Shown here piece by piece: positions 1 to 35,483 of a stretch of DNA of 35,483 nucleotides (positions are counted from its first letter, which is position 1; each line of letters starts with the position of its first letter). Below the pieces are notes generated by a model that saw only the letters and a program-made list of their open reading frames with translations, ran no database searches and was not told the DNA's origin. The stretch is from positions 1 through 35,483 of the IMG/VR virus record IMGVR_UViG_3300021959_000167. One strand, written 5' to 3'. A program made the translations under genes and the position numbers. The DNA comes from a virus.

Positions 1-51
1 GATGATGCGATTGAGGTGTTTACATATTTATCAAATAAATTAACTAAATAA
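1..51 (+). CDS. Prohead protease, C-terminal end only (cut by window start)
   Basis: The first 51 bases encode the last 16 residues and the stop codon of a protein. They match exactly the end of the complete prohead protease gene at 26808-27485. It sits 11 bases before the major capsid gene, as in the complete copy. The truncation comes from the window edge and is not a mutation. Confidence 0.9.
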   Translation, partial: DDAIEVFTYLSNKLTK

Positions 52-62
52 ATTTTTCAAAA

Positions 63-1256
63 ATGAATGAAAATGTAAAAGCGCAATTGGATCAACTTGG
101 CGATTTAATCGATGCCAAATTGGAAAAAGCGCAAGGTCAAGCAATTGATTCTGCAACTGGAAAAGCGGATGAAATGCTTAAGAGTGAGATCAACAATCTT
201 ACTACTCAATTCAACGAGCGTTTTGATGCAATGGAAGTTGCAAACAAAAAACACTTTGAATCAAAACAAGATGTTTCCTTTAAAGGTGCTTTAACAAATG
301 CCATCAATGATGGTGCTATTGAAGCAATTGCAAAAGGAAATGCACGTTCTGCATCATTCGAGGTAAAAGCCGATATGACTGTTGCAGCCGATTTCACTGG
401 TGAAGTTATTCCCGCTGATAGAGTTGCAGGATACAAATTCGATCCTAGTCGTTCAGTTCACGTGAGAAACTTGATTCCACAAGGATCAACTTCATCTGAT
501 GTTGTTCGTTTCGTAAAAGAATCAGGATATTCAAATGGTGCTGCAACCGCAGCGGAGGGTGCTACACTTGCACAATCTGATTTTGATATGACTGCATCTG
601 ATGCAAACGTTCGTAAAATTGGAACGTATTTCCGCATCAGTGAGGAAATGTTGGCGGATACTCCACAACTTACATCATATCTTTCAGCTCGTGCGCCTGA
701 AAAACTATTATCTGTTGAGGATACACAAATCCTTTCAGGTAATGGCACTGCGCCAAACCTTTCAGGTATCATCACCGATGCTGCTGATTTTGATACTTCT
801 GCAAGTGGTGCGTTTTATCAAAGCGTAGAATCTGCAAATGAATTTGATGTGCTTGTTGCTACATTAAACCAATTGGCATTGAGTGAATATCAAGCGGATT
901 ACATTATGTTGAATCCAACTGATTTCCATAAAATCCTTTTATTGAAAGATAGCCAAAATAGCTATTTGAAAGATCAGGTTTATGCAGGTTTACAACCCGC
1001 TTTCATGGGTGTGCCAGTTGTGATCAACACTGCAATCAGTGCGGGAACATTCCTTGCAGGGAACTTCGGTGTTGGAACTCAACTTTGGGTGCGTGACAAC
1101 GTTGGTGTTGAATTCTTTAGAGAAGATGGCACAAACGTACGTGATGGTTTCGTTACTGTTCGTGTATCTGAAAGAATCGCATTGACAAACTACTTGCCAA
1201 ATGCGTTCGTAAATGGATCATTCTCAACTGCAAAAGCTGCACTTGAAACTCCCTAA
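63..1256 (+). CDS. Major capsid protein, HK97 fold (allele A)
   Basis: This is a 397-residue HK97-type major capsid protein, the shell subunit of the head. Residues 1 to about 95 are charged and helical, like the HK97 delta (scaffold) domain that the prohead protease removes. The shell domain follows from about residue 100, where the sequence turns to strand-rich text (SFEVKADMTVAADFTGEVIP) and includes a segment with GNGTAPNLSGI near residue 240. It lies directly after the prohead protease, as is standard. A second copy (27497-28690) differs at 15 residues by my count, ten of them in the first 94. A terminator hairpin follows the stop codon, which suits a highly expressed gene. The family call is firm; the cleavage point is inferred. 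Confidence 0.95.
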   Translation: MNENVKAQLDQLGDLIDAKLEKAQGQAIDSATGKADEMLKSEINNLTTQFNERFDAMEVANKKHFESKQDVSFKGALTNAINDGAIEAIAKGNARSASFEVKADMTVAADFTGEVIPADRVAGYKFDPSRSVHVRNLIPQGSTSSDVVRFVKESGYSNGAATAAEGATLAQSDFDMTASDANVRKIGTYFRISEEMLADTPQLTSYLSARAPEKLLSVEDTQILSGNGTAPNLSGIITDAADFDTSASGAFYQSVESANEFDVLVATLNQLALSEYQADYIMLNPTDFHKILLLKDSQNSYLKDQVYAGLQPAFMGVPVVINTAISAGTFLAGNFGVGTQLWVRDNVGVEFFREDGTNVRDGFVTVRVSERIALTNYLPNAFVNGSFSTAKAALETP

Positions 1257-1282
1257 TCAATAGGGCATTACAACCAACAAAA

Positions 1283-1315
1283 GGGGTTATCATATTCGAT
1301 AACCTCTTTTTTTTT
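1283..1315 (+). terminator. Rho-independent terminator after major capsid gene
   Basis: The arms GGGGTTATC (1283-1291) and GATAACCTC (1298-1306) form a nine-pair stem with a six-base loop, followed by nine T. In the other pass (28717-28748) the arms are GGGGTGAGC and GTTCACCTC. One T-A pair became G-C and another became G-U, so pairing is conserved while sequence changes. This is direct evidence that the hairpin is functional. Confidence 0.9.
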
Positions 1316-1334
1316 GCATTTTTTTTTGATTTTG

Positions 1335-1365
1335 TTTGGTGGGAAAAAATATTTTCTTATATTTG
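1335..1365 (+). promoter_or_regulatory. Bacteroidota-type promoter with palindromic spacer
   Basis: TTTG at 1335-1338 is followed by 19 bases and then TATATTTG at 1358-1365. This matches the Bacteroidota -33/-7 pattern. The spacer holds an imperfect A/T palindrome (GGGAAAAAATATTTTCTT) also found at the promoters at 13070, 20924 and 28871. It drives the 51-residue gene at 1387 and probably the genes behind it. Confidence 0.8.
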
Positions 1366-1386
1366 TACCAACAAAACGAAACAGAT

Positions 1387-1542
1387 ATGAACAATTTTCA
1401 AAGTATTACCGACAACAGATTAAGAAAAGATTTAATTTCAATAGCACAATCAATGCAAGGTCACCATTTCGCAAGATTAGCGATGATGATGGCGGAGGAA
1501 AGAGGCATTGATTTAAGCTATGAAGATGCTTTAAAACTTTAA
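1387..1542 (+). CDS. Small helical protein of unknown function (51 aa)
   Basis: I do not recognise this 51-residue protein. It looks all-helical, with the conserved text ITDNRLR near the start, a methionine run (LAMMM) in the middle, and SYEDAL near the end. The start at 1387 is chosen because the promoter -7 box ends at 1365, so the longer reading frame that begins inside the promoter cannot be translated from it. The second pass carries a divergent homologue of 50 residues (28923-29075) with the same ITDNR, MAMMM and SYEDAL landmarks, so the frame is under selection. It is the first gene behind one of the palindromic promoters, a position that suggests an early or regulatory role; this is inference. 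Confidence 0.7.
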   Translation: MNNFQSITDNRLRKDLISIAQSMQGHHFARLAMMMAEERGIDLSYEDALKL

Positions 1543-1552
1543 AAAAACAAAC

Positions 1553-1570
1553 GGGGAGGGCAACCTCCCC
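1553..1570. other. GC-rich hairpin with GCAA tetraloop between small genes
   Basis: GGGGAGG, loop GCAA, then CCTCCCC make a perfect seven-pair stem capped by a GNRA tetraloop. It is kept unchanged in the second pass (29085-29102) although the flanks differ. No T tract follows on the + strand, but the A-rich flank before it would be a T tract on the - strand. It could be an mRNA-stabilising structure or an antisense terminator. Confidence 0.7.
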
Positions 1571-1585
1571 ATAAAACTTGAAACA

Positions 1586-1702
1586 ATGAAACGGAAAATC
1601 GAAAACTTTATTTTTGACTGCATCATATATTTTGCAGCATTTGGATTGATGAGTGGCTTTGTGTACTTGTGTGCATTGGCTGATAAATGGGTTGGAGTAT
1701 GA
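1586..1702 (+). CDS. Tiny membrane protein (38 aa)
   Basis: This 38-residue protein has a basic start (MKRKIENF), then a hydrophobic stretch at roughly residues 9-31 that can span the membrane once, and a short polar end. Its stop codon overlaps the next start in an ATGA at 1699-1702, so the two are probably translationally coupled. The second pass has the same protein at 29119-29235 with identical amino acids by my reading but silent changes in the DNA, which supports it as a real gene. Function unknown; small single-span phage proteins sometimes act on the host envelope, but nothing here shows that. Confidence 0.65.
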   Translation: MKRKIENFIFDCIIYFAAFGLMSGFVYLCALADKWVGV

Positions 1703-1851
1703 AGCGCAAGGAAACAAAAATCAACAAAGGATTGTTGGGATGGCTTTTCTTTTTAGTTGGCGCACGTACAATTTACCTTTTCAATGATATATTTACGGGG
1801 ATTTTTTTGATCCTCATTGGATTTACAATGATGTTAAATAAAGGGGAATGA
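1699..1851 (+). CDS. Tiny membrane protein (50 aa)
   Basis: This 50-residue protein has a lysine-rich start (MKRKETKINKG) and two short hydrophobic segments, at about residues 12-20 and 32-44, suggesting a hairpin membrane protein. It overlaps the previous gene by four bases and the next gene also by four bases. The second-pass homologue (29232-29384) differs at only two residues by my reading, again with silent changes. Function unknown. The short overlapping chain from 1586 to 1988 looks like one operon unit behind the promoter at 1335. Confidence 0.65.
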   Translation: MKRKETKINKGLLGWLFFLVGARTIYLFNDIFTGIFLILIGFTMMLNKGE

Positions 1852-1988
1852 TGGATTATTTGAGTGCAGATTACAAAAGGTATTTGCAACTATTGGATGC
1901 AAAGGAATTCAGTAAGTTGCCATTGTCAAAACAATTGATGGTTTTGAAAGAACTCGGCGAATTGGAAAAGAAAATTGCTCAATCTTAG
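1848..1988 (+). CDS. Small helical protein of unknown function (46 aa)
   Basis: This 46-residue protein starts MMDYLSADYK and continues as charged helical text with SKQLMVLKEL in the second half. The start lies in an ATGATGA overlap with the upstream stop. The homologue in the second pass (29381-29536) is 51 residues long, with a diverged C-terminus beyond residue 36 or so, so the end of this protein tolerates change. It is followed by a terminator at 2023. No family recognised. Confidence 0.65.
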   Translation: MMDYLSADYKRYLQLLDAKEFSKLPLSKQLMVLKELGELEKKIAQS

Positions 1989-2022
1989 GGCATTTATTCA
2001 TAGTTTGTTTTTATTGTTGAAA

Positions 2023-2051
2023 AGGGCATCCATTTGGTTGCCTTTTTTTTT
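2023..2051 (+). terminator. Rho-independent terminator before PD-(D/E)XK gene
   Basis: AGGGCATCC, loop ATTT, GGTTGCCTT form a nine-position stem with one T-T mismatch and one G-U pair, running into a T tract. In the second pass (29559-29587) the mismatch is replaced by a G-U pair, so the stem is kept or improved. Confidence 0.8.
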
Positions 2052-2064
2052 GTAGATTTATTTT

Positions 2065-2442
2065 GTGAATGCAAACCAATTTGGATGCTTTGCGGAATAT
2101 CGATTCGCAATTCGTGCAATGGAATGGGGTTTCAATGTTTCCATGCCATTGCTTGATGCATCCGCATACGATGCCATTGTGGAAAAGAATGGTGTTGTGC
2201 GTAAAATACAAATCAAATCAATTTCAGAGGCACGTACAATTAAGGAAAATCGTGAGGATGTGCAATGTGTATTGCGTAGGGATGGCAAATCATATCCAAT
2301 TGAAATGGTTGATTACTTTGCAATTTACGTTGAACGTGATCGTGGGTTTTATATTATTAAGAATAACGGGCAAAAAACAATCAGGTTATCAACAGAGGGT
2401 ATATATAAAAAAAATTTGAATAACTTTGCGATAATTCTGTGA
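2065..2442 (+). CDS. Small PD-(D/E)XK nuclease-like protein
   Basis: This 125-residue protein has the arrangement of a minimal PD-(D/E)XK nuclease: a helix with E11 (GCFAEYRF), then D36 in SAYDAIVE, then the strand KIQIKS with Q49 and K51. The pattern resembles small homing or intron-associated endonucleases and resolvase-like proteins of that superfamily. The only usable in-frame start is GTG at 2065, because a TAG lies 12 bases upstream. A possible -7 box (TAGATTTA, 2053-2060) ends four bases before the start, so a leaderless message is possible. It is preceded by a terminator, so it is its own transcription unit. The second-pass copy (29601) differs at about 13 residues, none at the putative catalytic positions. 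Role is unknown; DNA cleavage is inferred from the motif. Confidence 0.7.
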   Translation: MNANQFGCFAEYRFAIRAMEWGFNVSMPLLDASAYDAIVEKNGVVRKIQIKSISEARTIKENREDVQCVLRRDGKSYPIEMVDYFAIYVERDRGFYIIKNNGQKTIRLSTEGIYKKNLNNFAIIL

Positions 2443-2470
2443 GGGATTTTTTTCTGTTTCAACTTAAAAG

Positions 2471-2500
2471 GAGGCGCAATCAATGTGCCTCTTTTTTTTT
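2471..2500 (+). terminator. Rho-independent terminator before neck genes
   Basis: GAGGCGCA (2471-2478), loop ATCAA, TGTGCCTC (2484-2491) form an eight-pair stem with one G-U pair, followed by nine T. The copy at 30007-30036 is identical. Because it lies inside the longer reading frame starting at 2439, it argues that the connector gene starts later, at 2523. Confidence 0.88.
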
Positions 2501-2507
2501 AACTTTA
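2500..2507 (+). promoter_or_regulatory. Candidate -7 box for the neck operon
   Basis: TAACTTTA directly follows the terminator T tract and lies 15 bases before the ATG at 2523. It matches TAnnTTTG except for the last base. No -33 element is clear because the T tract occupies that position. Confidence 0.45.
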
Positions 2508-2522
2508 CACAAAATAAATGCA

Positions 2523-3035
2523 ATGAGGCAAATCACAATAAATTCCACAACTGGAAATGAAATCATCAGCATTCAGGATGTTAAAGATTTCGCAAGGATT
2601 GATACATCCGCTGATGATACGTTGATTAGTTTGATGATTGAAACCGCACGAATATGGTGCGAAAATTACATTTCAAGGGATATTGTTCCAAAAAACAGAA
2701 CTTATTATTTAGATGCAACCCAAACGGGATTGATTGATTTGCCATTTTCACCAGTGGCATCAGTTGAATCGGTTACAATAAATGATGAAACCGCAACGTA
2801 CACAATACTCGGGTTGAATAATGAAACGATTGAATTGGATGGCGGTGCTGCGGAAAAGGTAAAAATAACGTACATAACGGAGGGTATTAACAATGCAATG
2901 ATGAAACAAGCAATGTTGCAAACAATCACAACGTATTATGATAATCGTGCCGATTTTGTTCAGGGTGCAAACGTGCATTTGATTCCAACAAATGCCAAAA
3001 CAATACTTTCATCTTACAAATCAATGTTTGTTTAA
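2523..3035 (+). CDS. Head-tail connector (gp6-like adaptor)
   Basis: This 170-residue protein matches the phage gp6 / phiE125 gp8-like connector family that forms a ring under the portal. It has the typical opening in which a helical segment (SIQDVKDFARID, then DDTLISLMIETARIWCENYISRD) precedes a strand domain with LPFSPVASVESVTI. The start at 2523 follows a terminator and a possible promoter; a frame extension up to 2439 exists but runs through the terminator. It overlaps the next gene by one base (TAATG). Identical copy at 30059-30571. Confidence 0.88.
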   Translation: MRQITINSTTGNEIISIQDVKDFARIDTSADDTLISLMIETARIWCENYISRDIVPKNRTYYLDATQTGLIDLPFSPVASVESVTINDETATYTILGLNNETIELDGGAAEKVKITYITEGINNAMMKQAMLQTITTYYDNRADFVQGANVHLIPTNAKTILSSYKSMFV

Positions 3036-3358
3036 TGGATGCGGGGAAATTAAATAAAAGGATTAAAATACTGCGATTGACTAAAACCGCAGATGGGTTT
3101 GGTGGCTTTACAAGTTCCGAAACCATTGTGCATACCTTTTGGTGCGCATACAAGGAAAATTCAGGCGAAATAACGCAGGAAAACGGAATTAGGGAGCAAC
3201 GCACCGCAATTGAAATAATACTGCGGGAAAAGGCAGCAAATCAAATCCTGATGAGTGATGTGTTGCAATTGGAATCATCCAATGAAAAATTTCGAATCAA
3301 TGACAAGTTTGATTCCACGATTGACAAGTACACAACAATTAAAGCGGTTACGATATGA
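3035..3358 (+). CDS. Head closure / head-tail joining protein
   Basis: This 107-residue protein fits the SPP1 gp16-like head-tail joining family: an N-terminal LNKRIKILR segment, the loop DGFGGFTSSE, then a small beta barrel including WCAYKENSGE and a C-terminal strand set. Such proteins plug the connector after DNA packaging. It overlaps the connector by one base and the next gene by four bases, consistent with the usual connector, closure, gp10, terminator order. Identical copy at 30571-30894. Confidence 0.85.
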   Translation: MDAGKLNKRIKILRLTKTADGFGGFTSSETIVHTFWCAYKENSGEITQENGIREQRTAIEIILREKAANQILMSDVLQLESSNEKFRINDKFDSTIDKYTTIKAVTI

Positions 3359-3795
3359 AAGCGGGTGTGAAAATCAATCAAGCGGATTTGGTGAAGTTGA
3401 ATAAAAAACTTGCGCAATTGCAAAAGTTCTCAAAACAAGAACTTGCCAATGAAGTTGGCAGGGGTGCAATGGAAATTGTTGGCAGGGCAAAACAATCCGC
3501 TCCAAAGGATACGGGTGCATTGCGCCAAAGTATCAATTCGGAGGCATCGGGAAAAGGTGTTGCGGTTTATGCAAATGCTAATTATGCGCCTTATATTGAA
3601 TTTGGCACTGGATCACAAGTGAGTTTGGCTGATATGAAAGAACTTGGAATCCCTGATGCGTATGCAGCGCAATTCAAAGGCAAAGGAATTCGTGAGGTGA
3701 ATTTACCAGCACGACCATTTTTCTTTTCATCCGCAAGGGTTGGTTTCAATAATATGCTCAAACGAGTGGATAAAAAACTTAAAAAATTAACATGA
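3355..3795 (+). CDS. HK97 gp10-like neck/tail protein
   Basis: This 146-residue protein belongs to the HK97 gp10 family. The hallmark text is SAPKDTGALRQSI near residue 50 and YAPYIEFGTG near residue 80, with PARPFFFSS near the end. Family members act at the head-tail interface or in tail completion. It overlaps both neighbours by four bases. Identical copy at 30891-31331. Confidence 0.9.
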   Translation: MKAGVKINQADLVKLNKKLAQLQKFSKQELANEVGRGAMEIVGRAKQSAPKDTGALRQSINSEASGKGVAVYANANYAPYIEFGTGSQVSLADMKELGIPDAYAAQFKGKGIREVNLPARPFFFSSARVGFNNMLKRVDKKLKKLT

Positions 3796-4277
3796 GAGAG
3801 GTTATTCATCGCATACGAAAAGCCATCATTGATCGTTTAACAAACGAAGTTTCATTGCGTGGCAATATCGTGCCAATTTATGGCAGAGTGCCATCAGATG
3901 CAACGTATCCATTTGTACGGGTTTATTCCCTTACAAACAATGAAGTTGATCAAAATCAAACAACATTCAATTCCGAAGTGATTACAAGGATTGAAGTGGT
4001 TACAAGATTTGAATCGGACAATGGAGGGGAACTGGATTGCAACCTAATTGTTGATGAATGTTTATCTTTGTTGCGCACACGATCTGCAAACTATTTTGAT
4101 TTAAGCGCACAAGGATTCAATGTGTACACATCACAAAATGAGGGCATTCAGTATATTGAGCAAGATTTGAGTGATCACACATATTTCAGGGCAATCATTG
4201 AACTTTCCAATCGTGTGGAACAAATTCCTCCATCGGGTGGGTTACAAAACGAATTACAATTTGAATTACAATCATAA
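3792..4277 (+). CDS. Tail terminator-like protein (DUF3168-like)
   Basis: This 161-residue protein lies where tail terminator (tail completion) proteins are found, directly after the gp10-like gene. The N-terminal helix (REVIHRIRKAIIDRL), the text IYGRVPSDATYPFVRVY and a central strand with RIEVVTRFES resemble DUF3168-type tail terminators, which cap the tube. Assignment rests on position and general likeness. It overlaps the next gene by one base. Identical copy at 31328-31813. Confidence 0.7.
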   Translation: MREVIHRIRKAIIDRLTNEVSLRGNIVPIYGRVPSDATYPFVRVYSLTNNEVDQNQTTFNSEVITRIEVVTRFESDNGGELDCNLIVDECLSLLRTRSANYFDLSAQGFNVYTSQNEGIQYIEQDLSDHTYFRAIIELSNRVEQIPPSGGLQNELQFELQS

Positions 4278-4867
4278 TGGCAAAAATTAATTTTACAAAT
4301 AAAACGGATAATCAAACATCGGAACTTGCGGAAATTTACAAGGTTACCGCAGCCAATGTGAATGAAATCAAAACAAGCGTAAATGCGCTATATGATACAC
4401 TTGGGGGGTTTGCATTCTATGAGGATGCCACAACTGAAACAACTCCGATTCAAGTCACTGCGGATACGTGGGTTGATTTAACCAATGACAAAGCGGGATC
4501 GGGTACGCTTACAACTTACAAGCCATCATATATCACTGGGGATTTGTGGGATTCAGCAACCAACACAATTGATTTGGATGAAATTGCCAATGGAAAAGTT
4601 GTGGTTGTTAGAACTGATTTTGAATACACTGCGGATTCAAGCAATCAGCACGTTGATGCAAGATTGTATTTTCCTGATATTTCAAAGGAGTTGCATTTTT
4701 TACACGCTGATTTAGGCAGTGAGCATGGCGCACATCATTACGTGAACACAATCCAATTTTATGTTGATAGCAACATCCAAACAAGTGATGTGAAAATACA
4801 ATTTCAATCATCGGGATCTGGTGATTTGAAAGTCAATGGTTTTATGATTACAATTTTGAGTTTCTAA
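4277..4867 (+). CDS. Putative trimeric jelly-roll surface protein
   Basis: This 196-residue protein begins with a helical, coiled-coil-like segment (about residues 12-42) and continues as beta-rich sequence with alternating hydrophobics (VVVVRTDFEY, ARLYFPDI, TIQFYVDS, VKIQFQSSGSGDLKVNGFMITI). That layout resembles short trimeric fibres or receptor-binding heads with a C1q/TNF-type jelly roll. It has no recognisable enzyme motif. Placed between the neck genes and the endolysin, it may be a head or neck decoration or a receptor-binding fibre; I cannot tell which. Identical copy at 31813-32403. Confidence 0.55.
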   Translation: MAKINFTNKTDNQTSELAEIYKVTAANVNEIKTSVNALYDTLGGFAFYEDATTETTPIQVTADTWVDLTNDKAGSGTLTTYKPSYITGDLWDSATNTIDLDEIANGKVVVVRTDFEYTADSSNQHVDARLYFPDISKELHFLHADLGSEHGAHHYVNTIQFYVDSNIQTSDVKIQFQSSGSGDLKVNGFMITILSF

Positions 4868-4868
4868 A

Positions 4869-5222
4869 ATGAAGCATTTTAAAATAAGCGAGTTTGATTC
4901 ACCTGATGAAGTTGGGAGTGGTGAACGTATGGATGCCGATGTGCTGCAAATGATTGACAAAGCACGTACAATTTTTGGCAAACCAATACGTGTAAATTCG
5001 GGAGTGCGCACGATTGCTCACAATGAAAAGGTTGGCGGATCAAAATCATCAAGCCATTTGAAAGGGTATGCAATTGATGTGAGTTGCGACAATTCAGCGG
5101 ATCGTTTTCGTTTGATTGAAATTTTGATGCTTGTTGGTTTCAATAGATTAGGGATTGCCAAAACGTTTATTCACGTTGATAATGATCCTGATAAAAGTAA
5201 GAATGTTATTTGGGTGTACTAA
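4869..5222 (+). CDS. Endolysin, M15-type peptidase
   Basis: This 117-residue protein is a compact zinc peptidase of the M15A / D-Ala-D-Ala carboxypeptidase-like family, which cuts peptidoglycan cross-bridge or stem peptides. The zinc ligands are visible as H63 and D70 in SSHLKGYAIDV and H102 in FIHVD; NSGVRT near residue 43 is also typical. There is no signal peptide, so release would need a holin, which is encoded next (one-base overlap, TAATG). Its length is normal for a single-domain phage M15 enzyme. Identical copy at 32405-32758. Confidence 0.92.
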   Translation: MKHFKISEFDSPDEVGSGERMDADVLQMIDKARTIFGKPIRVNSGVRTIAHNEKVGGSKSSSHLKGYAIDVSCDNSADRFRLIEILMLVGFNRLGIAKTFIHVDNDPDKSKNVIWVY

Positions 5223-5608
5223 TGAAAACATTGTTGGCAAAATTATTGGGTTTGAATAGTGGTGGGCAATCATCATTGGGTGAATTTGCAAAGGATTTGC
5301 GTGAAGCAATCAAAGGCAAAGAAATTGATCCTGATAAAATGATGGATCTTGTAAAGGTACAAAGTGAAATCAACAAGATGGAGGCACAACATCGGAGCGT
5401 ATTTGTTGCGGGTTGGCGACCATTCATTGGTTGGATTTGTGGGATTGCACTTTTGTACAACTTCATTATTCGTGATGTGATTGCGTGGGTTTCACCTGAT
5501 GCAATGCCTCCCGCAATTCAAATGGACCAACTTATAACGATTTTGTTAGGTATGCTAGGATTGGGCGGATTACGTACCTTTGAAAAGATAAAAGATAAAA
5601 GCAAATAA
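5222..5608 (+). CDS. Holin, 3TM superfamily-like
   Basis: This 128-residue protein matches the Holin_3TM pattern: an N-terminal helical cytoplasmic part (about 20-58), the landmark VAGWRPFIGWICGIALLYNF (residues 62-81) beginning a membrane span that ends near 90, and a last span at about 101-119 before RTFEKIKDKSK. It would form the membrane lesion that lets the neighbouring M15 peptidase reach the wall. The start at 5222 is preferred over a TTG-like start 12 bases upstream because it gives the common one-base overlap with the endolysin stop. Identical copy at 32758-33144. Confidence 0.88.
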   Translation: MKTLLAKLLGLNSGGQSSLGEFAKDLREAIKGKEIDPDKMMDLVKVQSEINKMEAQHRSVFVAGWRPFIGWICGIALLYNFIIRDVIAWVSPDAMPPAIQMDQLITILLGMLGLGGLRTFEKIKDKSK

Positions 5609-6865
5609 ATGGGAGTAAAAGATACCGCAAATTTGGCAATGATTCCCGCAGCGTATGCGGAGGACAAAGTTTATTCCGTTTTGCCATCCGATGGTGATGG
5701 GGATTTCACATTCACACGCACTGGATCAGGCACACGCATAAACAAAGGCGGTTATATTGAAACAATGGCAGAAAACGTGCCTCGTTTGAATTATCGTTTG
5801 GATGCGGATGGAAACCCAACGGAATGCGCTGAATTACTATTGGAGGAGTCAAGGCAAAACATCAAAACATATTCGGAACAAGTTGGGAGTTGGACACAAT
5901 CAAGCATCAGTACATCATCAAATCAAGCCATTGCGCCAAATGGAACTTTTACTGCGGATAAAATAATTGAAGATACAGCAACAACCTCACACAAAGTTTA
6001 TCAATCAGTTTTAACAACAAGTGGGCAACCATATACTTGGAGCGTATTTTTAAAAGCAGACACAAGGAGCAAAGCACGTTTGAACATTTTTGGTGCTTAT
6101 GCTGAATTTGATATTACAAATGCATCCGTAATTGCAACAAGTGGAGTAATAAGCCAAAGCATCGAAAGATATCCAAATGGATGGGTGCGTTGCTCAATCA
6201 CTGAAACCGCAAATTCATCATCAACATTAACTTACGTTTATTTATTAAATAATGCAGGAAGTGTGAGCTATACTGGCGATGGCACAAGTGGTTTATTTGT
6301 TTGGGGTGGGCAAATGGAACTTGGCAGTACAATGACAAGTTACATTCCAACTCCATCATCATCAGCAATCACACGCAACAAGGATTCCGCAATAAAACAA
6401 CCATTTGGGGATTTAGCAGGTGATTATCCAATTACACTATATTGGAAAGGGCGCATCACTGGATACGATTCGGGAGGTTTCAATACACAAAGTTTTGCAG
6501 GAATTGCAAAAAATAATGATGCAATCAGATATTTGAATTTGAAGTTTTATTCAACAACTCAATTGCAACTTGAACGGAGGAACACAACACAAAGAATCGA
6601 TTATATTTCATATACAACACAATTGGATGATGTGAAAAAAATTGCGATCAAATATATTTCAAGCACACACGTTGTGATTTATATTGATGGAATCGAAGTT
6701 TTTAATGATTCATCACTCACTGCGGTTTCATGGGATTTTGATTCCATATATATTGGGCAATTCAGATACAATGCAGATACGGGAAAACGTATTCCCGCTG
6801 ATGAATTATTTGTGTGGAACAAGGCACTTACCGATGCGGAAATGGTTGAAATAACAACTCCATAA
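5609..6865 (+). CDS. LamG-like carbohydrate-binding virion protein
   Basis: This 418-residue protein starts with the phage-typical block FTFTRTGSGTRINKGGYIE, NVPRLNYRLD and ELLLEESRQN (about residues 33-86). A central beta-sandwich-like region follows (about 90-250). The C-terminal third (about 270-418) looks like a concanavalin A / LamG domain, ending in IYIGQFRYNADTG and ELFVWNKALTDAEM. Proteins with this layout are phage head spikes, fibres or tail adhesins that bind surface glycans. It begins directly after the holin stop. The receptor role is inferred. Identical copy at 33145-34401. Confidence 0.75.
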   Translation: MGVKDTANLAMIPAAYAEDKVYSVLPSDGDGDFTFTRTGSGTRINKGGYIETMAENVPRLNYRLDADGNPTECAELLLEESRQNIKTYSEQVGSWTQSSISTSSNQAIAPNGTFTADKIIEDTATTSHKVYQSVLTTSGQPYTWSVFLKADTRSKARLNIFGAYAEFDITNASVIATSGVISQSIERYPNGWVRCSITETANSSSTLTYVYLLNNAGSVSYTGDGTSGLFVWGGQMELGSTMTSYIPTPSSSAITRNKDSAIKQPFGDLAGDYPITLYWKGRITGYDSGGFNTQSFAGIAKNNDAIRYLNLKFYSTTQLQLERRNTTQRIDYISYTTQLDDVKKIAIKYISSTHVVIYIDGIEVFNDSSLTAVSWDFDSIYIGQFRYNADTGKRIPADELFVWNKALTDAEMVEITTP

Positions 6866-6877
6866 AATAAAAATAAA

Positions 6878-7198
6878 ATGAGCCATATATTTAAAAAATA
6901 CGAGTTTCCTGATGAAGCAACCGCAGATGCTTTGATTGATGCTTTGCCATCGGAGGAAATTGATGGGGAAACATTTCCCGCACATAATCACGTGATCGTG
7001 AAATTGTATCATCCAATAGTAGAACAACCCGTTTATGATGAAGATGGCAATATCGAAACCGAAGCGGTATTAGCGGAAAACTTTTCCGTTGATGTGCTTT
7101 GGCAGGGTATTGAAGCGCAACCATCCGATTGGGAACAATACGAAATCACCTTGACTGATAATGGTGTGCATACCTTTTTTGGTATTGATTACGTATAA
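6878..7198 (+). CDS. Hypothetical protein after LamG-like gene (106 aa)
   Basis: I do not recognise this 106-residue acidic protein. It begins MSHIFKKYEFPDEATADALIDALP, with a mixed alpha/beta look, and ends in HTFFGIDYV. It lies 12 bases after the LamG-like gene in the same direction and directly before the promoter of the tail tube gene, so it probably ends the operon that begins at 2523. Small proteins after fibre genes are often fibre chaperones or virion components; here this is only a guess. Identical copy at 34414-34734. Confidence 0.65.
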   Translation: MSHIFKKYEFPDEATADALIDALPSEEIDGETFPAHNHVIVKLYHPIVEQPVYDEDGNIETEAVLAENFSVDVLWQGIEAQPSDWEQYEITLTDNGVHTFFGIDYV

Positions 7199-7216
7199 AA
7201 AAAAATAGTATATTTG
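7185..7216 (+). promoter_or_regulatory. Promoter for the major tail protein
   Basis: TTG at 7185-7187 is followed by 21 bases and TATATTTG at 7209-7216, a full Bacteroidota -7 box, 26 bases before the ATG at 7242. A separate promoter suits a structural protein needed in many copies. The identical element is at 34721-34752. Confidence 0.7.
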
Positions 7217-7241
7217 TATAGAATTAAAAAATTAAAAAGCT

Positions 7242-7652: not shown

Positions 7653-7659
7653 TAAATTC

Positions 7660-7700: not shown

Positions 7701-7704
7701 ACAA

Positions 7705-8088: not shown

Positions 8089-8117
8089 ACAACACGCAAC
8101 TCACTTGGGATACACTG

Positions 8118-27485: not shown

Positions 27486-27496
27486 ATTTTTCAAAA

Positions 27497-28690: not shown

Positions 28691-28716
28691 TCAATAGGGC
28701 ATTACAACCAACAAAA

Positions 28717-28748
28717 GGGGTGAGCATATTCGTTCACCTCTTTTTTTT
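28717..28748 (+). terminator. Rho-independent terminator after capsid allele B
   Basis: GGGGTGAGC (28717-28725) and GTTCACCTC (28732-28740) keep the nine-pair stem found after allele A, with compensatory base changes, and are followed by eight T. Confidence 0.9.
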
Positions 28749-28870
28749 ATGTCTTAATTTAACAAAGTGCCATGTAATGCGCTTTTTTAATTATTTGCTT
28801 ATTTTGTAAAGTATGTTTTGCTTTATAGTGCCGTACATTGCTCTTTTTTTTTGCATTTTTTTTATATTTA
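28749..28870. other. Extra intergenic DNA present only in the second pass
   Basis: The gap between capsid terminator and the next promoter is 102 bases longer here than in the first pass. The extra DNA holds two imperfect copies of an AGTGCC...TGC-CT element, each followed by a T run. It is bounded by CTCTTTTTTTT tracts, so slippage between T tracts could have removed it from the other allele. I see no gene in it. Confidence 0.7.
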
Positions 28871-28901
28871 TTTGGAGGGAAAGAATTTTTTCTTATATTT
28901 G
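28871..28901 (+). promoter_or_regulatory. Promoter with palindromic spacer (second pass)
   Basis: TTTG (28871-28874), 19 bases, TATATTTG (28894-28901). The spacer carries GAAAGAATTTTTTC, the same palindrome family as at 1335. The promoter is kept while surrounding DNA differs. Confidence 0.8.
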
Positions 28902-28922
28902 TACCAACAAAATGAAACAATT

Positions 28923-29075
28923 ATGAAAATTCAAGATATTACCGACAACAGATTAAGAAACGAAATGATCCAACTTTCACAAGGATTGCAAAAGCATACA
29001 TTCGCAAGAATGGCAATGATGATGCTTGAGGAAAAAGGAATTTATATTTCATACGAGGATGCGTTGAATCTTTAA
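28923..29075 (+). CDS. Small helical protein (50 aa), homologue of 1387-1542
   Basis: This 50-residue protein keeps ITDNRLR, MAMMM and SYEDAL of its counterpart but differs at nearly half of its other positions, the most diverged protein in the cassette. The start follows the promoter at 28871. Function unknown. Such fast change beside a conserved capsid gene suggests relaxed or diversifying selection. Confidence 0.7.
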   Translation: MKIQDITDNRLRNEMIQLSQGLQKHTFARMAMMMLEEKGIYISYEDALNL

Positions 29076-29084
29076 AAAATTAAC

Positions 29085-29102
29085 GGGGAGGGCAACCTCC
29101 CC
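29085..29102. other. GC-rich hairpin with GCAA tetraloop (second pass)
   Basis: The same perfect seven-pair GGGGAGG/CCTCCCC stem with GCAA loop as at 1553-1570, preserved although the flanking bases differ. Confidence 0.7.
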
Positions 29103-29118
29103 ATTAAAACTTGAAACA

Positions 29119-29235
29119 ATGAAACGGAAAATTGAAAACTTTATTTTTGACTGCATAATATATTTTGCAGCATTTGGATTGATGAGTGGCTTTGTGTACT
29201 TGTGTGCATTGGCGGATAAATGGGTTGGAGTATGA
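29119..29235 (+). CDS. Tiny membrane protein (38 aa), second pass
   Basis: Counterpart of 1586-1702, with the same amino acid sequence by my reading but silent DNA differences. One predicted membrane span; its stop overlaps the next start (ATGA). Confidence 0.65.
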   Translation: MKRKIENFIFDCIIYFAAFGLMSGFVYLCALADKWVGV

Positions 29236-29384
29236 AACGCAAGGAAACAAAAATCAACAAAGGGTTGTTGGGGTGGCTTTTCTTTTTAGTTGGCGCACGT
29301 ACAATTTACCTTTTCAATGATACTTTTACGGGGATTTTTTTGATCCTCATTGGATTTACAATGATGTTAAACAAAGGGAAATGA
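29232..29384 (+). CDS. Tiny membrane protein (50 aa), second pass
   Basis: Counterpart of 1699-1851 with two residue changes (IF to TF in the middle, and a final GK in place of GE). Two short hydrophobic segments. It overlaps its neighbours by four bases on each side. Confidence 0.65.
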   Translation: MKRKETKINKGLLGWLFFLVGARTIYLFNDTFTGIFLILIGFTMMLNKGK

Positions 29385-29536
29385 TGGATTATTTAAATGC
29401 AGATTACAAAAGATATTTGGAATTGCTTGATGAAAAGGAATTCAATCGATTGCCATTATCAAAGCAATTGATGGTACTCAAGGAATTGAACGACCTTGAG
29501 CAAAAAATTTCCCGTTATTCGGGGAGTATTTCATAA
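29381..29536 (+). CDS. Small helical protein (51 aa), second pass
   Basis: Counterpart of 1848-1988, five residues longer, with a different C-terminal end (SRYSGSIS). The N-terminal 35 residues are well kept (MMDYLNADYKRYLELLDEKE, then LPLSKQLMVLKEL). Confidence 0.65.
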   Translation: MMDYLNADYKRYLELLDEKEFNRLPLSKQLMVLKELNDLEQKISRYSGSIS

Positions 29537-29558
29537 TTAGTTTGTTATATTGTTGAAA

Positions 29559-29587
29559 AGGGCAGCCATTTGGTTGCCTTTTTTTTT
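29559..29587 (+). terminator. Rho-independent terminator (second pass)
   Basis: AGGGCAGCC, loop ATTT, GGTTGCCTT and a T tract. A G-U pair replaces the T-T mismatch of the copy at 2023. Confidence 0.8.
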
Positions 29588-29600
29588 GTAGATTTATTTT

Positions 29601-29978
29601 GTGAATGCTAACCAATTTGGATGCTTTGCGGAATATCGATTCGCTATTCGTGCAATGGAAAATGGATTCAATGTTTCCATGCCATTGCTTGATGCATCCG
29701 CATATGATGCTATTGTGGAAAAGGATGGTGTTGTGCGTAAAATACAAATCAAATCAATAACAAAGGATCGCACCAATAAAATGGATCGTGATGATGTGCA
29801 ATGCGTATTGCGTAGGGATGGCAAATCTTATCCAATTGAAATGGTTGATTACTTTGCAATTTACGTTGAACGTGATCGTGGGTTTTATATTATTAAGAAT
29901 AACGGGCAAAAATCAATCAGGTTATCAACAGATGGTATATATAAAAAAAATTTGAATAACTTTGCGATAATTCTGTGA
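29601..29978 (+). CDS. Small PD-(D/E)XK nuclease-like protein (second pass)
   Basis: Counterpart of 2065-2442, with GTG start. The putative catalytic E11, D36, Q49 and K51 are kept. Differences cluster at W21N and at residues 54-64 (SEARTIKENRE against TKDRTNKMDRD). The last difference between the passes falls near the end of this gene (29933); everything after it is identical, so the allele boundary lies inside this gene. Confidence 0.7.
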   Translation: MNANQFGCFAEYRFAIRAMENGFNVSMPLLDASAYDAIVEKDGVVRKIQIKSITKDRTNKMDRDDVQCVLRRDGKSYPIEMVDYFAIYVERDRGFYIIKNNGQKSIRLSTDGIYKKNLNNFAIIL

Positions 29979-30006
29979 GGGATTTTTTTCTGTTTCAACT
30001 TAAAAG

Positions 30007-30036
30007 GAGGCGCAATCAATGTGCCTCTTTTTTTTT
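30007..30036 (+). terminator. Rho-independent terminator (second pass)
   Basis: Identical to the hairpin at 2471-2500: GAGGCGCA and TGTGCCTC arms and a T tract, followed by the TAACTTTA candidate promoter. Confidence 0.88.
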
Positions 30037-30058
30037 AACTTTACACAAAATAAATGCA

Positions 30059-30571
30059 ATGAGGCAAATCACAATAAATTCCACAACTGGAAATGAAATC
30101 ATCAGCATTCAGGATGTTAAAGATTTCGCAAGGATTGATACATCCGCTGATGATACGTTGATTAGTTTGATGATTGAAACCGCACGAATATGGTGCGAAA
30201 ATTACATTTCAAGGGATATTGTTCCAAAAAACAGAACTTATTATTTAGATGCAACCCAAACGGGATTGATTGATTTGCCATTTTCACCAGTGGCATCAGT
30301 TGAATCGGTTACAATAAATGATGAAACCGCAACGTACACAATACTCGGGTTGAATAATGAAACGATTGAATTGGATGGCGGTGCTGCGGAAAAGGTAAAA
30401 ATAACGTACATAACGGAGGGTATTAACAATGCAATGATGAAACAAGCAATGTTGCAAACAATCACAACGTATTATGATAATCGTGCCGATTTTGTTCAGG
30501 GTGCAAACGTGCATTTGATTCCAACAAATGCCAAAACAATACTTTCATCTTACAAATCAATGTTTGTTTAA
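30059..30571 (+). CDS. Head-tail connector (second pass)
   Basis: Identical to 2523-3035: 170-residue gp6-like connector. The start is placed after the terminator and candidate promoter. Confidence 0.88.
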   Translation: MRQITINSTTGNEIISIQDVKDFARIDTSADDTLISLMIETARIWCENYISRDIVPKNRTYYLDATQTGLIDLPFSPVASVESVTINDETATYTILGLNNETIELDGGAAEKVKITYITEGINNAMMKQAMLQTITTYYDNRADFVQGANVHLIPTNAKTILSSYKSMFV

Positions 30572-30894
30572 TGGATGCGGGGAAATTAAATAAAAGGATT
30601 AAAATACTGCGATTGACTAAAACCGCAGATGGGTTTGGTGGCTTTACAAGTTCCGAAACCATTGTGCATACCTTTTGGTGCGCATACAAGGAAAATTCAG
30701 GCGAAATAACGCAGGAAAACGGAATTAGGGAGCAACGCACCGCAATTGAAATAATACTGCGGGAAAAGGCAGCAAATCAAATCCTGATGAGTGATGTGTT
30801 GCAATTGGAATCATCCAATGAAAAATTTCGAATCAATGACAAGTTTGATTCCACGATTGACAAGTACACAACAATTAAAGCGGTTACGATATGA
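30571..30894 (+). CDS. Head closure / joining protein (second pass)
   Basis: Identical to 3035-3358: 107-residue SPP1 gp16-like head-tail joining protein. Confidence 0.85.
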   Translation: MDAGKLNKRIKILRLTKTADGFGGFTSSETIVHTFWCAYKENSGEITQENGIREQRTAIEIILREKAANQILMSDVLQLESSNEKFRINDKFDSTIDKYTTIKAVTI

Positions 30895-31331
30895 AAGCGG
30901 GTGTGAAAATCAATCAAGCGGATTTGGTGAAGTTGAATAAAAAACTTGCGCAATTGCAAAAGTTCTCAAAACAAGAACTTGCCAATGAAGTTGGCAGGGG
31001 TGCAATGGAAATTGTTGGCAGGGCAAAACAATCCGCTCCAAAGGATACGGGTGCATTGCGCCAAAGTATCAATTCGGAGGCATCGGGAAAAGGTGTTGCG
31101 GTTTATGCAAATGCTAATTATGCGCCTTATATTGAATTTGGCACTGGATCACAAGTGAGTTTGGCTGATATGAAAGAACTTGGAATCCCTGATGCGTATG
31201 CAGCGCAATTCAAAGGCAAAGGAATTCGTGAGGTGAATTTACCAGCACGACCATTTTTCTTTTCATCCGCAAGGGTTGGTTTCAATAATATGCTCAAACG
31301 AGTGGATAAAAAACTTAAAAAATTAACATGA
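30891..31331 (+). CDS. HK97 gp10-like protein (second pass)
   Basis: Identical to 3355-3795: 146 residues with the YAPYIEFGTG motif. Confidence 0.9.
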   Translation: MKAGVKINQADLVKLNKKLAQLQKFSKQELANEVGRGAMEIVGRAKQSAPKDTGALRQSINSEASGKGVAVYANANYAPYIEFGTGSQVSLADMKELGIPDAYAAQFKGKGIREVNLPARPFFFSSARVGFNNMLKRVDKKLKKLT

Positions 31332-31813
31332 GAGAGGTTATTCATCGCATACGAAAAGCCATCATTGATCGTTTAACAAACGAAGTTTCATTGCGTGGCA
31401 ATATCGTGCCAATTTATGGCAGAGTGCCATCAGATGCAACGTATCCATTTGTACGGGTTTATTCCCTTACAAACAATGAAGTTGATCAAAATCAAACAAC
31501 ATTCAATTCCGAAGTGATTACAAGGATTGAAGTGGTTACAAGATTTGAATCGGACAATGGAGGGGAACTGGATTGCAACCTAATTGTTGATGAATGTTTA
31601 TCTTTGTTGCGCACACGATCTGCAAACTATTTTGATTTAAGCGCACAAGGATTCAATGTGTACACATCACAAAATGAGGGCATTCAGTATATTGAGCAAG
31701 ATTTGAGTGATCACACATATTTCAGGGCAATCATTGAACTTTCCAATCGTGTGGAACAAATTCCTCCATCGGGTGGGTTACAAAACGAATTACAATTTGA
31801 ATTACAATCATAA
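31328..31813 (+). CDS. Tail terminator-like protein (second pass)
   Basis: Identical to 3792-4277: 161 residues, assigned by position and general likeness. Confidence 0.7.
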   Translation: MREVIHRIRKAIIDRLTNEVSLRGNIVPIYGRVPSDATYPFVRVYSLTNNEVDQNQTTFNSEVITRIEVVTRFESDNGGELDCNLIVDECLSLLRTRSANYFDLSAQGFNVYTSQNEGIQYIEQDLSDHTYFRAIIELSNRVEQIPPSGGLQNELQFELQS

Positions 31814-32403
31814 TGGCAAAAATTAATTTTACAAATAAAACGGATAATCAAACATCGGAACTTGCGGAAATTTACAAGGTTACCGCAGCCAATGTGAATG
31901 AAATCAAAACAAGCGTAAATGCGCTATATGATACACTTGGGGGGTTTGCATTCTATGAGGATGCCACAACTGAAACAACTCCGATTCAAGTCACTGCGGA
32001 TACGTGGGTTGATTTAACCAATGACAAAGCGGGATCGGGTACGCTTACAACTTACAAGCCATCATATATCACTGGGGATTTGTGGGATTCAGCAACCAAC
32101 ACAATTGATTTGGATGAAATTGCCAATGGAAAAGTTGTGGTTGTTAGAACTGATTTTGAATACACTGCGGATTCAAGCAATCAGCACGTTGATGCAAGAT
32201 TGTATTTTCCTGATATTTCAAAGGAGTTGCATTTTTTACACGCTGATTTAGGCAGTGAGCATGGCGCACATCATTACGTGAACACAATCCAATTTTATGT
32301 TGATAGCAACATCCAAACAAGTGATGTGAAAATACAATTTCAATCATCGGGATCTGGTGATTTGAAAGTCAATGGTTTTATGATTACAATTTTGAGTTTC
32401 TAA
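31813..32403 (+). CDS. Putative jelly-roll surface protein (second pass)
   Basis: Identical to 4277-4867: helical start and beta-rich C-terminal domain. Confidence 0.55.
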   Translation: MAKINFTNKTDNQTSELAEIYKVTAANVNEIKTSVNALYDTLGGFAFYEDATTETTPIQVTADTWVDLTNDKAGSGTLTTYKPSYITGDLWDSATNTIDLDEIANGKVVVVRTDFEYTADSSNQHVDARLYFPDISKELHFLHADLGSEHGAHHYVNTIQFYVDSNIQTSDVKIQFQSSGSGDLKVNGFMITILSF

Positions 32404-32404
32404 A

Positions 32405-32758
32405 ATGAAGCATTTTAAAATAAGCGAGTTTGATTCACCTGATGAAGTTGGGAGTGGTGAACGTATGGATGCCGATGTGCTGCAAATGATTGACAAAGCA
32501 CGTACAATTTTTGGCAAACCAATACGTGTAAATTCGGGAGTGCGCACGATTGCTCACAATGAAAAGGTTGGCGGATCAAAATCATCAAGCCATTTGAAAG
32601 GGTATGCAATTGATGTGAGTTGCGACAATTCAGCGGATCGTTTTCGTTTGATTGAAATTTTGATGCTTGTTGGTTTCAATAGATTAGGGATTGCCAAAAC
32701 GTTTATTCACGTTGATAATGATCCTGATAAAAGTAAGAATGTTATTTGGGTGTACTAA
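32405..32758 (+). CDS. Endolysin, M15-type peptidase (second pass)
   Basis: Identical to 4869-5222, with zinc ligands H63, D70 and H102. Confidence 0.92.
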   Translation: MKHFKISEFDSPDEVGSGERMDADVLQMIDKARTIFGKPIRVNSGVRTIAHNEKVGGSKSSSHLKGYAIDVSCDNSADRFRLIEILMLVGFNRLGIAKTFIHVDNDPDKSKNVIWVY

Positions 32759-33144
32759 TGAAAACATTGTTGGCAAAATTATTGGGTTTGAATAGTGGTG
32801 GGCAATCATCATTGGGTGAATTTGCAAAGGATTTGCGTGAAGCAATCAAAGGCAAAGAAATTGATCCTGATAAAATGATGGATCTTGTAAAGGTACAAAG
32901 TGAAATCAACAAGATGGAGGCACAACATCGGAGCGTATTTGTTGCGGGTTGGCGACCATTCATTGGTTGGATTTGTGGGATTGCACTTTTGTACAACTTC
33001 ATTATTCGTGATGTGATTGCGTGGGTTTCACCTGATGCAATGCCTCCCGCAATTCAAATGGACCAACTTATAACGATTTTGTTAGGTATGCTAGGATTGG
33101 GCGGATTACGTACCTTTGAAAAGATAAAAGATAAAAGCAAATAA
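32758..33144 (+). CDS. Holin, 3TM superfamily-like (second pass)
   Basis: Identical to 5222-5608, with the VAGWRPFIGW landmark. Confidence 0.88.
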   Translation: MKTLLAKLLGLNSGGQSSLGEFAKDLREAIKGKEIDPDKMMDLVKVQSEINKMEAQHRSVFVAGWRPFIGWICGIALLYNFIIRDVIAWVSPDAMPPAIQMDQLITILLGMLGLGGLRTFEKIKDKSK

Positions 33145-34401
33145 ATGGGAGTAAAAGATACCGCAAATTTGGCAATGATTCCCGCAGCGTATGCGGAGGA
33201 CAAAGTTTATTCCGTTTTGCCATCCGATGGTGATGGGGATTTCACATTCACACGCACTGGATCAGGCACACGCATAAACAAAGGCGGTTATATTGAAACA
33301 ATGGCAGAAAACGTGCCTCGTTTGAATTATCGTTTGGATGCGGATGGAAACCCAACGGAATGCGCTGAATTACTATTGGAGGAGTCAAGGCAAAACATCA
33401 AAACATATTCGGAACAAGTTGGGAGTTGGACACAATCAAGCATCAGTACATCATCAAATCAAGCCATTGCGCCAAATGGAACTTTTACTGCGGATAAAAT
33501 AATTGAAGATACAGCAACAACCTCACACAAAGTTTATCAATCAGTTTTAACAACAAGTGGGCAACCATATACTTGGAGCGTATTTTTAAAAGCAGACACA
33601 AGGAGCAAAGCACGTTTGAACATTTTTGGTGCTTATGCTGAATTTGATATTACAAATGCATCCGTAATTGCAACAAGTGGAGTAATAAGCCAAAGCATCG
33701 AAAGATATCCAAATGGATGGGTGCGTTGCTCAATCACTGAAACCGCAAATTCATCATCAACATTAACTTACGTTTATTTATTAAATAATGCAGGAAGTGT
33801 GAGCTATACTGGCGATGGCACAAGTGGTTTATTTGTTTGGGGTGGGCAAATGGAACTTGGCAGTACAATGACAAGTTACATTCCAACTCCATCATCATCA
33901 GCAATCACACGCAACAAGGATTCCGCAATAAAACAACCATTTGGGGATTTAGCAGGTGATTATCCAATTACACTATATTGGAAAGGGCGCATCACTGGAT
34001 ACGATTCGGGAGGTTTCAATACACAAAGTTTTGCAGGAATTGCAAAAAATAATGATGCAATCAGATATTTGAATTTGAAGTTTTATTCAACAACTCAATT
34101 GCAACTTGAACGGAGGAACACAACACAAAGAATCGATTATATTTCATATACAACACAATTGGATGATGTGAAAAAAATTGCGATCAAATATATTTCAAGC
34201 ACACACGTTGTGATTTATATTGATGGAATCGAAGTTTTTAATGATTCATCACTCACTGCGGTTTCATGGGATTTTGATTCCATATATATTGGGCAATTCA
34301 GATACAATGCAGATACGGGAAAACGTATTCCCGCTGATGAATTATTTGTGTGGAACAAGGCACTTACCGATGCGGAAATGGTTGAAATAACAACTCCATA
34401 A
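33145..34401 (+). CDS. LamG-like binding virion protein (second pass)
   Basis: Identical to 5609-6865: 418 residues with a C-terminal LamG-like domain. Confidence 0.75.
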   Translation: MGVKDTANLAMIPAAYAEDKVYSVLPSDGDGDFTFTRTGSGTRINKGGYIETMAENVPRLNYRLDADGNPTECAELLLEESRQNIKTYSEQVGSWTQSSISTSSNQAIAPNGTFTADKIIEDTATTSHKVYQSVLTTSGQPYTWSVFLKADTRSKARLNIFGAYAEFDITNASVIATSGVISQSIERYPNGWVRCSITETANSSSTLTYVYLLNNAGSVSYTGDGTSGLFVWGGQMELGSTMTSYIPTPSSSAITRNKDSAIKQPFGDLAGDYPITLYWKGRITGYDSGGFNTQSFAGIAKNNDAIRYLNLKFYSTTQLQLERRNTTQRIDYISYTTQLDDVKKIAIKYISSTHVVIYIDGIEVFNDSSLTAVSWDFDSIYIGQFRYNADTGKRIPADELFVWNKALTDAEMVEITTP

Positions 34402-34413
34402 AATAAAAATAAA

Positions 34414-34734
34414 ATGAGCCATATATTTAAAAAATACGAGTTTCCTGATGAAGCAACCGCAGATGCTTTGATTGATGCTTTGCCATCGGAGGAAATTGAT
34501 GGGGAAACATTTCCCGCACATAATCACGTGATCGTGAAATTGTATCATCCAATAGTAGAACAACCCGTTTATGATGAAGATGGCAATATCGAAACCGAAG
34601 CGGTATTAGCGGAAAACTTTTCCGTTGATGTGCTTTGGCAGGGTATTGAAGCGCAACCATCCGATTGGGAACAATACGAAATCACCTTGACTGATAATGG
34701 TGTGCATACCTTTTTTGGTATTGATTACGTATAA
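34414..34734 (+). CDS. Hypothetical protein (106 aa, second pass)
   Basis: Identical to 6878-7198; no family recognised. Confidence 0.65.
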   Translation: MSHIFKKYEFPDEATADALIDALPSEEIDGETFPAHNHVIVKLYHPIVEQPVYDEDGNIETEAVLAENFSVDVLWQGIEAQPSDWEQYEITLTDNGVHTFFGIDYV

Positions 34735-34752
34735 AAAAAAATAGTATATTTG
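34721..34752 (+). promoter_or_regulatory. Promoter for tail tube gene (second pass)
   Basis: Identical to 7185-7216: TTG, 21 bases, TATATTTG. Confidence 0.7.
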
Positions 34753-34777
34753 TATAGAATTAAAAAATTAAAAAGCT

Positions 34778-35188
34778 ATGCCAACATCGGGTGTATTTAA
34801 CGGAACAAACCTCGTACTTTCAGTAGAGGGAACAAATCTTGGGCATACAACATCGTGCTCATTAACATTATCAACTGATTTGCCAGAGGCAACAACAAAA
34901 GATTCAAGCGGATTTCAAGAGGTGATCGCAGGTGTGATGAGCGGTGAAATTTCATTTGATGGATTAGTAACGTATGATGATACTTCAAACGTTACTGAAT
35001 TAGCTGATTTTCTTTTGGCACGTACACAATTAACTTGTGTATTTGGAACTGAAACAACGGGTGATCGTATTTTCACTGCGGAGGGTTTCCTTTCATCACT
35101 TGAACAAAGTGCGGAAATGGAATCACCAGTTTCTTATTCAGGATCAATCACATTGACTGGTACAATTACTGCATCAGACAAACCATAA
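34778..35188 (+). CDS. Major tail (tube) protein (second pass)
   Basis: Identical to 7242-7652: 136-residue tail tube protein, followed by a terminator. Confidence 0.9.
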   Translation: MPTSGVFNGTNLVLSVEGTNLGHTTSCSLTLSTDLPEATTKDSSGFQEVIAGVMSGEISFDGLVTYDDTSNVTELADFLLARTQLTCVFGTETTGDRIFTAEGFLSSLEQSAEMESPVSYSGSITLTGTITASDKP

Positions 35189-35195
35189 TAAATTC

Positions 35196-35236
35196 GGGCG
35201 CAATTTGAGGGGATTGCGCTCCTTTATTTTTTTTTT
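35196..35236 (+). terminator. Terminator after tail tube gene (second pass)
   Basis: Identical to 7660-7700: GGGCGCAAT and ATTGCGCTC arms followed by a T-rich tract. Confidence 0.88.
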
Positions 35237-35240
35237 ACAA

Positions 35241-35483
35241 ATGGCAAACAAACAACGGGGATATTATTCCATCAAACTTGGCGGGAAAATGCGCACTTTG
35301 CATTTTTCAATGAACTTTTGGGCAAACTTCACTGATACATTAGGCATTTCGCTTGATAAGATTGGGGATATATTTACAGAGGGCATTTCACTTGGCACAA
35401 TTCGTGCGCTTATTTATTCCGCAATCCTTGCAAACGATCAAGAGGAGGGCAATGAAATTGACTACAATGAATTCAAAGTTGGT
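35241..35483 (+). CDS. Tail assembly chaperone G-like, cut by window end
   Basis: The first 81 codons of the chaperone gene seen complete at 7705-8088. The sequence stops inside the gene, before the frameshift site. Confidence 0.85.
   Translation, partial: MANKQRGYYSIKLGGKMRTLHFSMNFWANFTDTLGISLDKIGDIFTEGISLGTIRALIYSAILANDQEEGNEIDYNEFKVG

Follow-up and report, generated by a model that had tools for sequence, protein, structure and literature searches.

The window analysed here comprises the whole 35,483 nucleotides of the IMG/VR virus record IMGVR_UViG_3300021959_000167 and carries the gene set of a tailed phage. Genes for an HK97-type capsid protein (PF05065), terminase, portal, head morphogenesis protein, prohead protease, tape measure, holin and endolysin are present together with primase-helicase, ERF recombinase and nuclease genes, and the whole amounts to one tailed-phage genome. 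Its terminase and capsid proteins resemble those of named phages only at identities below 60%. Phocaeicola and Parabacteroides phages account for the eight terminase matches listed, at 39-40% identity, and phages of Proteobacteria for the eight capsid matches listed, at 31-32%. A distant DNA search of window positions 1-8000 against named phages returned no match, and a scan of genome_contigs with the capsid protein returned no relative.

The same 8 kb are found at both ends of the window. In a global alignment, positions 1-7947 and 27435-35483 run in register and differ in 365 columns, gaps counted, all of which are confined to a block that extends from the first difference at 128/27562 to the last at 2397/29933. 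To the left of this block 127 bp are identical, and to the right 5,550 bp are identical and reach the window end. The repeated 8 kb, diverged in this block only, had been described in an earlier note on this DNA, which also took the record for a genome read around past its own start; both descriptions are borne out, as the sequence beyond one full turn is an exact repeat of the beginning of that turn. The identity of the flanks is also expected if an assembler prints one path twice and is not independent evidence of agreement between two genomes. Small strain differences are masked by metaSPAdes (PMC8021871), so that flank identity is no proof of genome identity. In the following, the diverged block is called cassette A in the first copy and cassette B in the second, and the single complete turn with cassette B is called the backbone (Table 1).

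Table 1. Features of the window that bear on the two cassettes, with positions in the window and the evidence for each.
Feature	Positions	Strand	Evidence
127-mer shared with the second copy (27435-27561) at the contig start; holds the tail of the prohead protease gene and the beginning of the capsid gene	1..127	+	alignment; graph split vertex
Block identical to L006: left 127-mer, cassette A and 171-bp stretch	1..2568	+	exact match of 2568 bp
Major capsid protein, allele A (HK97 type)	63..1256	+	PF05065, E 1.4e-37; phrog_10, E 2.6e-50
Small PD-(D/E)XK nuclease-like gene, allele A	2065..2442	+	PF11645, E 1.7e-12
171-bp stretch common to L006 and the backbone; proposed join of two phages	2398..2568	+	exact matches; merge and split vertices
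One complete turn of the backbone phage, 27,536 bp, with allele B	2398..29933	+	2398 and 29934 in register
Prohead protease gene, 5' of the capsid gene	26808..27485	+	phrog_80, E 4.6e-49
144-bp stretch common to L006 and the backbone, left of the cassette	27418..27561	+	exact match; graph
Major capsid protein, allele B	27497..28690	+	ORF; comparison with allele A
About 100 bp unique to allele B, past the capsid terminator	28742..28843	+	alignment
PD-(D/E)XK nuclease-like gene, allele B	29601..29978	+	ORF; comparison with allele A
Read-around, exact repeat of 2398-7947	29934..35483	+	no difference past 2397/29933

Each cassette includes the greater part of the capsid gene and of a PD-(D/E)XK nuclease-like gene, together with a terminator, a promoter-like repeat and about four small ORFs. 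The capsid protein of allele A matches the Phage_capsid family (PF05065) with 130.1 bits against a cut-off of 24.2, which places it in the HK97 type, and both alleles encode 397 amino acids. Allele A is preceded solely by the tail of the prohead protease gene, and the full protease gene stands before allele B only. Between the two capsid alleles 88 codons differ, 73 of them synonymously and 15 nonsynonymously (dN 0.040, dS 0.358), and the capsid terminators of both alleles fold the same stem, in which two base pairs are changed on both sides. The prevalence of silent changes in the capsid gene and the covariation of the terminator stem had already been pointed out in the earlier note, and both are confirmed here. 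As the capsid changes are mostly synonymous and the terminator covaries, sequencing noise is rejected as the source of the differences between A and B, and judged by their sequence both alleles look like genuine functional DNA. The main length difference between the cassettes is the insertion of about 100 bp that is found in B only. In the nuclease-like gene 22 codons differ between A and B, and 11 of these changes are synonymous; the nonsynonymous share of changed codons is thus 11/22 in this gene versus 15/88 in the capsid gene, and seven of the 11 amino-acid changes cluster at residues 54-64.

An exact counterpart of cassette A is found in the IMG/VR phage record IMGVR_UViG_3300021958_000015 (L006 hereafter), which has 30,273 bp and closes by a perfect 127-bp terminal overlap. 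Window positions 1-2568 equal L006 base for base, with zero mismatches over 2568 bp, and the next-longest exact matches between L006 and the window measure 726 and 716 bp. L006 is collinear with the window around the capsid gene by BLAST and has one capsid gene. It differs from the window in that the other main BLAST pieces, outside 1-2568, show 85-98% identity to the backbone (two short matches of the promoter-like repeat, at 83% and 76%, are left out of this range) and in that its unit, with the 127-bp overlap removed, is 30,146 bp long versus 27,536 bp. L006 and the backbone have 206 exact stretches of 30 bp or more in common. Of these, 13 reach 127 bp (12 without a wrap-around duplicate), and both cassette edges carry shared stretches longer than 127 bp, namely of 144 and 171 bp. 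The 171-bp stretch at 2398-2568 recurs at 29934-30104, at the right edge of cassette B. Allele A is therefore tied to backbone-specific sequence on the right only, via 171 bp that are also present in L006, and to its left lie just 127 bp, which are common to L006 and the backbone. Elsewhere, the blocks 10187-10912 and 13140-13855, each of more than 700 bp, are identical in the backbone and L006, and their neighbourhood is less alike.

The number 127 also marks the left end of the record, as the window starts exactly 127 bp before the first difference between A and B at base 128. The metaSPAdes command given in a metagenome paper (JGI) reads -k 33,55,77,99,127, so that the last k-mer length is 127 (PMC11584781), and the CheckV authors report that IMG/VR contains concatenated genomes and terminal repeats of k-mer length, both of which they explain as probable products of assembly (PMC8116208). 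We infer that k=127 was also used in assembling the record studied here. A de Bruijn graph with k=127 was built from L006 and the ring of the backbone with allele B, which measures 27,536 bp. Along the ring the graph branches at 24 points. Among these are a split behind position 27561 and a merge at position 2398, and the cassette A arm of the graph is a unitig identical to window positions 1-2524. The left end of the contig coincides with a vertex of this graph, of length k (127), as expected of an assembly that has run beyond a full circle. At both ends of 82 related loci, some of which do not reach a contig end, an exact match of length 127 to another locus occurred four times, and at five shifted offsets, which served as a control, matches of this length occurred zero times at each. 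Among ten other related records whose ends were compared, nine have no terminal overlap and one has an overlap of 123 bp, not 127. The earlier note had read the sharp borders of the diverged block as signs of a recent allelic replacement by homologous recombination. The left border is best read as the k-mer length of the assembler rather than as a recombination border; homologous replacement as such keeps a minor share of the probability and is weighed below.

Further relatives were collected from viral_contigs as the best 80 of the 294 loci found with the capsid protein. Nineteen records chosen from these 80 loci, with lengths of 11.7-37.4 kb and some of them perhaps fragments, were searched for capsid genes, and all 19 have one each. 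In 25 of the 80 loci, the two halves of the allele B capsid gene reach at best 89% and 93%, so that none of these 25 is a close relative of this allele. Exact-pattern scans of viral_contigs, which may omit records very near the window, gave 0 contigs for the capsid pattern of allele B, 0 for a 24-mer of the insertion found in B only, and 0 each for the backbone directly right and directly left of the cassette; the A-type small gene was matched in 2 contigs, the L006-type right flank in 3 and the backbone near 7900 in 1. Both lineages appear in part in a single sample, 3300009001. One of its loci, L005, is L006-like and shares 96.4% with L006 over 4.4 kb, including exact runs of 706 and 1421 bp. 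The other, L086, is backbone-like, with 98.9% identity to the backbone over 4.5 kb, yet only 81% over another 2.9 kb. It corresponds, on the opposite strand, to about 5602-13529 of the window. The length of L086, 7947, equals the repeat end at 7947, which, given the region and strand that it covers, looks like a coincidence. In a different sample, the record IMGVR_UViG_3300044724_008651 (L109) carries blocks of 1,180 and 380 bp that are identical to allele A and L006. On the right, its identity with L006 continues for about 340 bp past the cassette; beyond that its sequence departs from L006 as well as from the backbone. The region left of the cassette falls outside its contig, so that L109 provides only moderate evidence for an exchange of cassettes.

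Taken together, we consider it likely that two related tailed phages were joined in the record, which would be an over-long, chimeric assembly and not a single virus with two capsid genes. The backbone phage would contribute its 27,536-bp unit, in which cassette B lies, and after it another 5,550 bp of read-around, and the second phage, of the L006 type and presumably present in the window's own sample, would contribute positions 1-2568 alone, with cassette A. This agrees with the suggestion of the earlier note that two strains were joined in one assembly, for which both the identity of 1-2568 to L006 and the 171-bp shared join speak. The accompanying idea that these strains share almost all other sequence finds no support, as L006, the only compared genome with an exact allele A, matches the backbone in main pieces of 85-98% identity. 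The cassettes are best taken as those of two strains, not as alleles in one backbone.

The join could have come about as follows, the exact route being a reconstruction from the graph. With shared stretches of more than 127 bp flanking them, the two cassettes would look like two arms of one bubble at k=127. A path that starts on a long backbone edge would extend to the right through arm B and re-use the sequence past B (29934-35483). Leftward, the path would meet the 171-bp shared edge, where the sole unused arm is A, and it would halt at the left vertex of A, as the preceding 144-bp edge has two inputs and two outputs. Such a route would explain why the contig starts where it does, why both arms are in it and why 5,550 bp are repeated exactly. 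It would also require a branch at unit position 7947, which corresponds to the right end of the window at 35483. When the ring was combined at k=127 with each related locus of at least 1000 bases, one by one and with the window's own pieces excluded, only L086 gave any vertex within 200 bases of 7947, at 7807 and 8113, and none lay at 7947 itself. An unseen third strain could branch at this right end.

A chimeric origin of the record is favoured by the 2568-bp identity to L006, compared with 726 bp for the longest other exact match, and by the end of this identical block in a shared stretch of at least k (171 bp), as a join of two strains would leave it. The 144- and 171-bp shared edges, the 127-bp start and the unitig 1-2524 predicted by the graph point in the same direction, as do the fragments resembling each lineage (L005 and L086) in one sample, the 127-bp terminal overlap of L006, the excess of 127-bp matches at the ends of related loci, and the single capsid gene in all 19 related records searched. 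Several observations argue against it. The end at 7947 coincides with no k=127 vertex from any relative tested, and none of the ten other records has a terminal overlap of 127 bp. With an L006-type genome present, the contig would have passed all 24 branch points on the ring, among them the 716- and 726-bp stretches that L006 and the backbone share, although stretches of this length are hardly bridged by short read pairs; differences in coverage could be the reason. Finally, a true recombinant with A in the backbone would yield an identical contig.

Comparable assembly products have been described. The concatenated IMG/VR contigs reported by the CheckV authors are likewise over-read from a circular template and end with k-mer-length repeats (PMC8116208). 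They contain 2.0 or more units, whereas the window contains about 1.3, and in the window the leading copy of the capsid region derives from a different strain, which makes an exact terminal-repeat test fail. The strain bubbles treated in the Phables paper likewise open between shared k-mers, and assemblers are said there to take one path or to end the contig (PMC10563150); in the window, in contrast, both arms are found in one contig. The finding is most likely an ordinary assembly artefact, and it illustrates in detail how an entry in a public virus collection can mimic a genome with two capsid alleles by joining two strains. The exact terminal-repeat test misses such a record because the first copy stems from a different strain. 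If the record is indeed chimeric, only 2398-29933 represent one genome, and counts of gene duplications, terminal repeats or genome sizes (35.5 versus 27.5 kb) that are taken from it would be wrong.

A real recombinant is possible, though considerably less probable. Here, strains with the same backbone would coexist, one with A and one with B. A would be a recent acquisition from an L006-type phage, brought in by homologous recombination inside the shared stretches of 144 and 171 bp, and the assembler would have walked both arms. This corresponds to the first alternative of the earlier note, with the type of donor now identified. The exact identity of 1-2568 to L006 fits a recent tract, and the 716- and 726-bp exact blocks amid divergence suggest either that the lineages exchange DNA or that the assembly is a mosaic there too. 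The L109 blocks identical to A, with differing sequence further to the right, and the ERF-type recombinase gene at 13303-13800 are consistent with such exchange as well, and since no second full genome is needed, long shared stretches elsewhere would need no resolving. Against this stands that A meets backbone-specific sequence on the right only, through sequence common to both phages. Moreover, a natural crossover needs no stretch of more than 127 bp, and just 13 of the 206 shared stretches reach 127, yet both cassette edges do. Were the recombinant real, a capsid gene would have been exchanged in nature, and the type of the donor would be known.

Two further explanations carry little weight. 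Free-standing homing nucleases promote their own spread, and by analogy the capsid-to-nuclease block might be a preferential exchange unit, in which the linked PD-(D/E)XK nuclease would promote its own spread along with the capsid gene; this idea, which we regard as improbable, draws on the occurrence of an identical tract (shared over 2568 bp by L006 and the window, and over 1180 and 380 bp by L109) beside differing sequence in different samples. Finally, one real molecule with both cassettes, be it a linear genome whose 8-kb terminal repeats have diverged or a heterozygote with terminal redundancy, deserves hardly any credence. The two copies are flush with both window ends, but the earlier note's proposal of a single molecule with both cassettes finds no support. 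Terminal repeats are renewed in each replication and should be identical. Real long direct terminal repeats are rejected in view of the 365 differing columns, the ends that cut the protease gene (left) and the ORF 7669-8088 (right), the left end on a 127-mer (L006, too, closing with a 127-bp overlap) and the single capsid gene in 19 of 19 related records searched.

The hosts of both related tailed phages are probably Bacteroidota. In both copies, the small gene past the capsid gene is preceded by promoter-like sites of the form TTTG-N19-TAnnTTTG, which we take to be the Bacteroidota promoter type. Three copies of a promoter-like repeat, each some 85-90 bp long, are present. Two lie past the capsid genes (1308-1391 and 28845-28934); the third, at 20897-20987, is 80-83% like the other two and precedes a small ORF that starts near 20,980.
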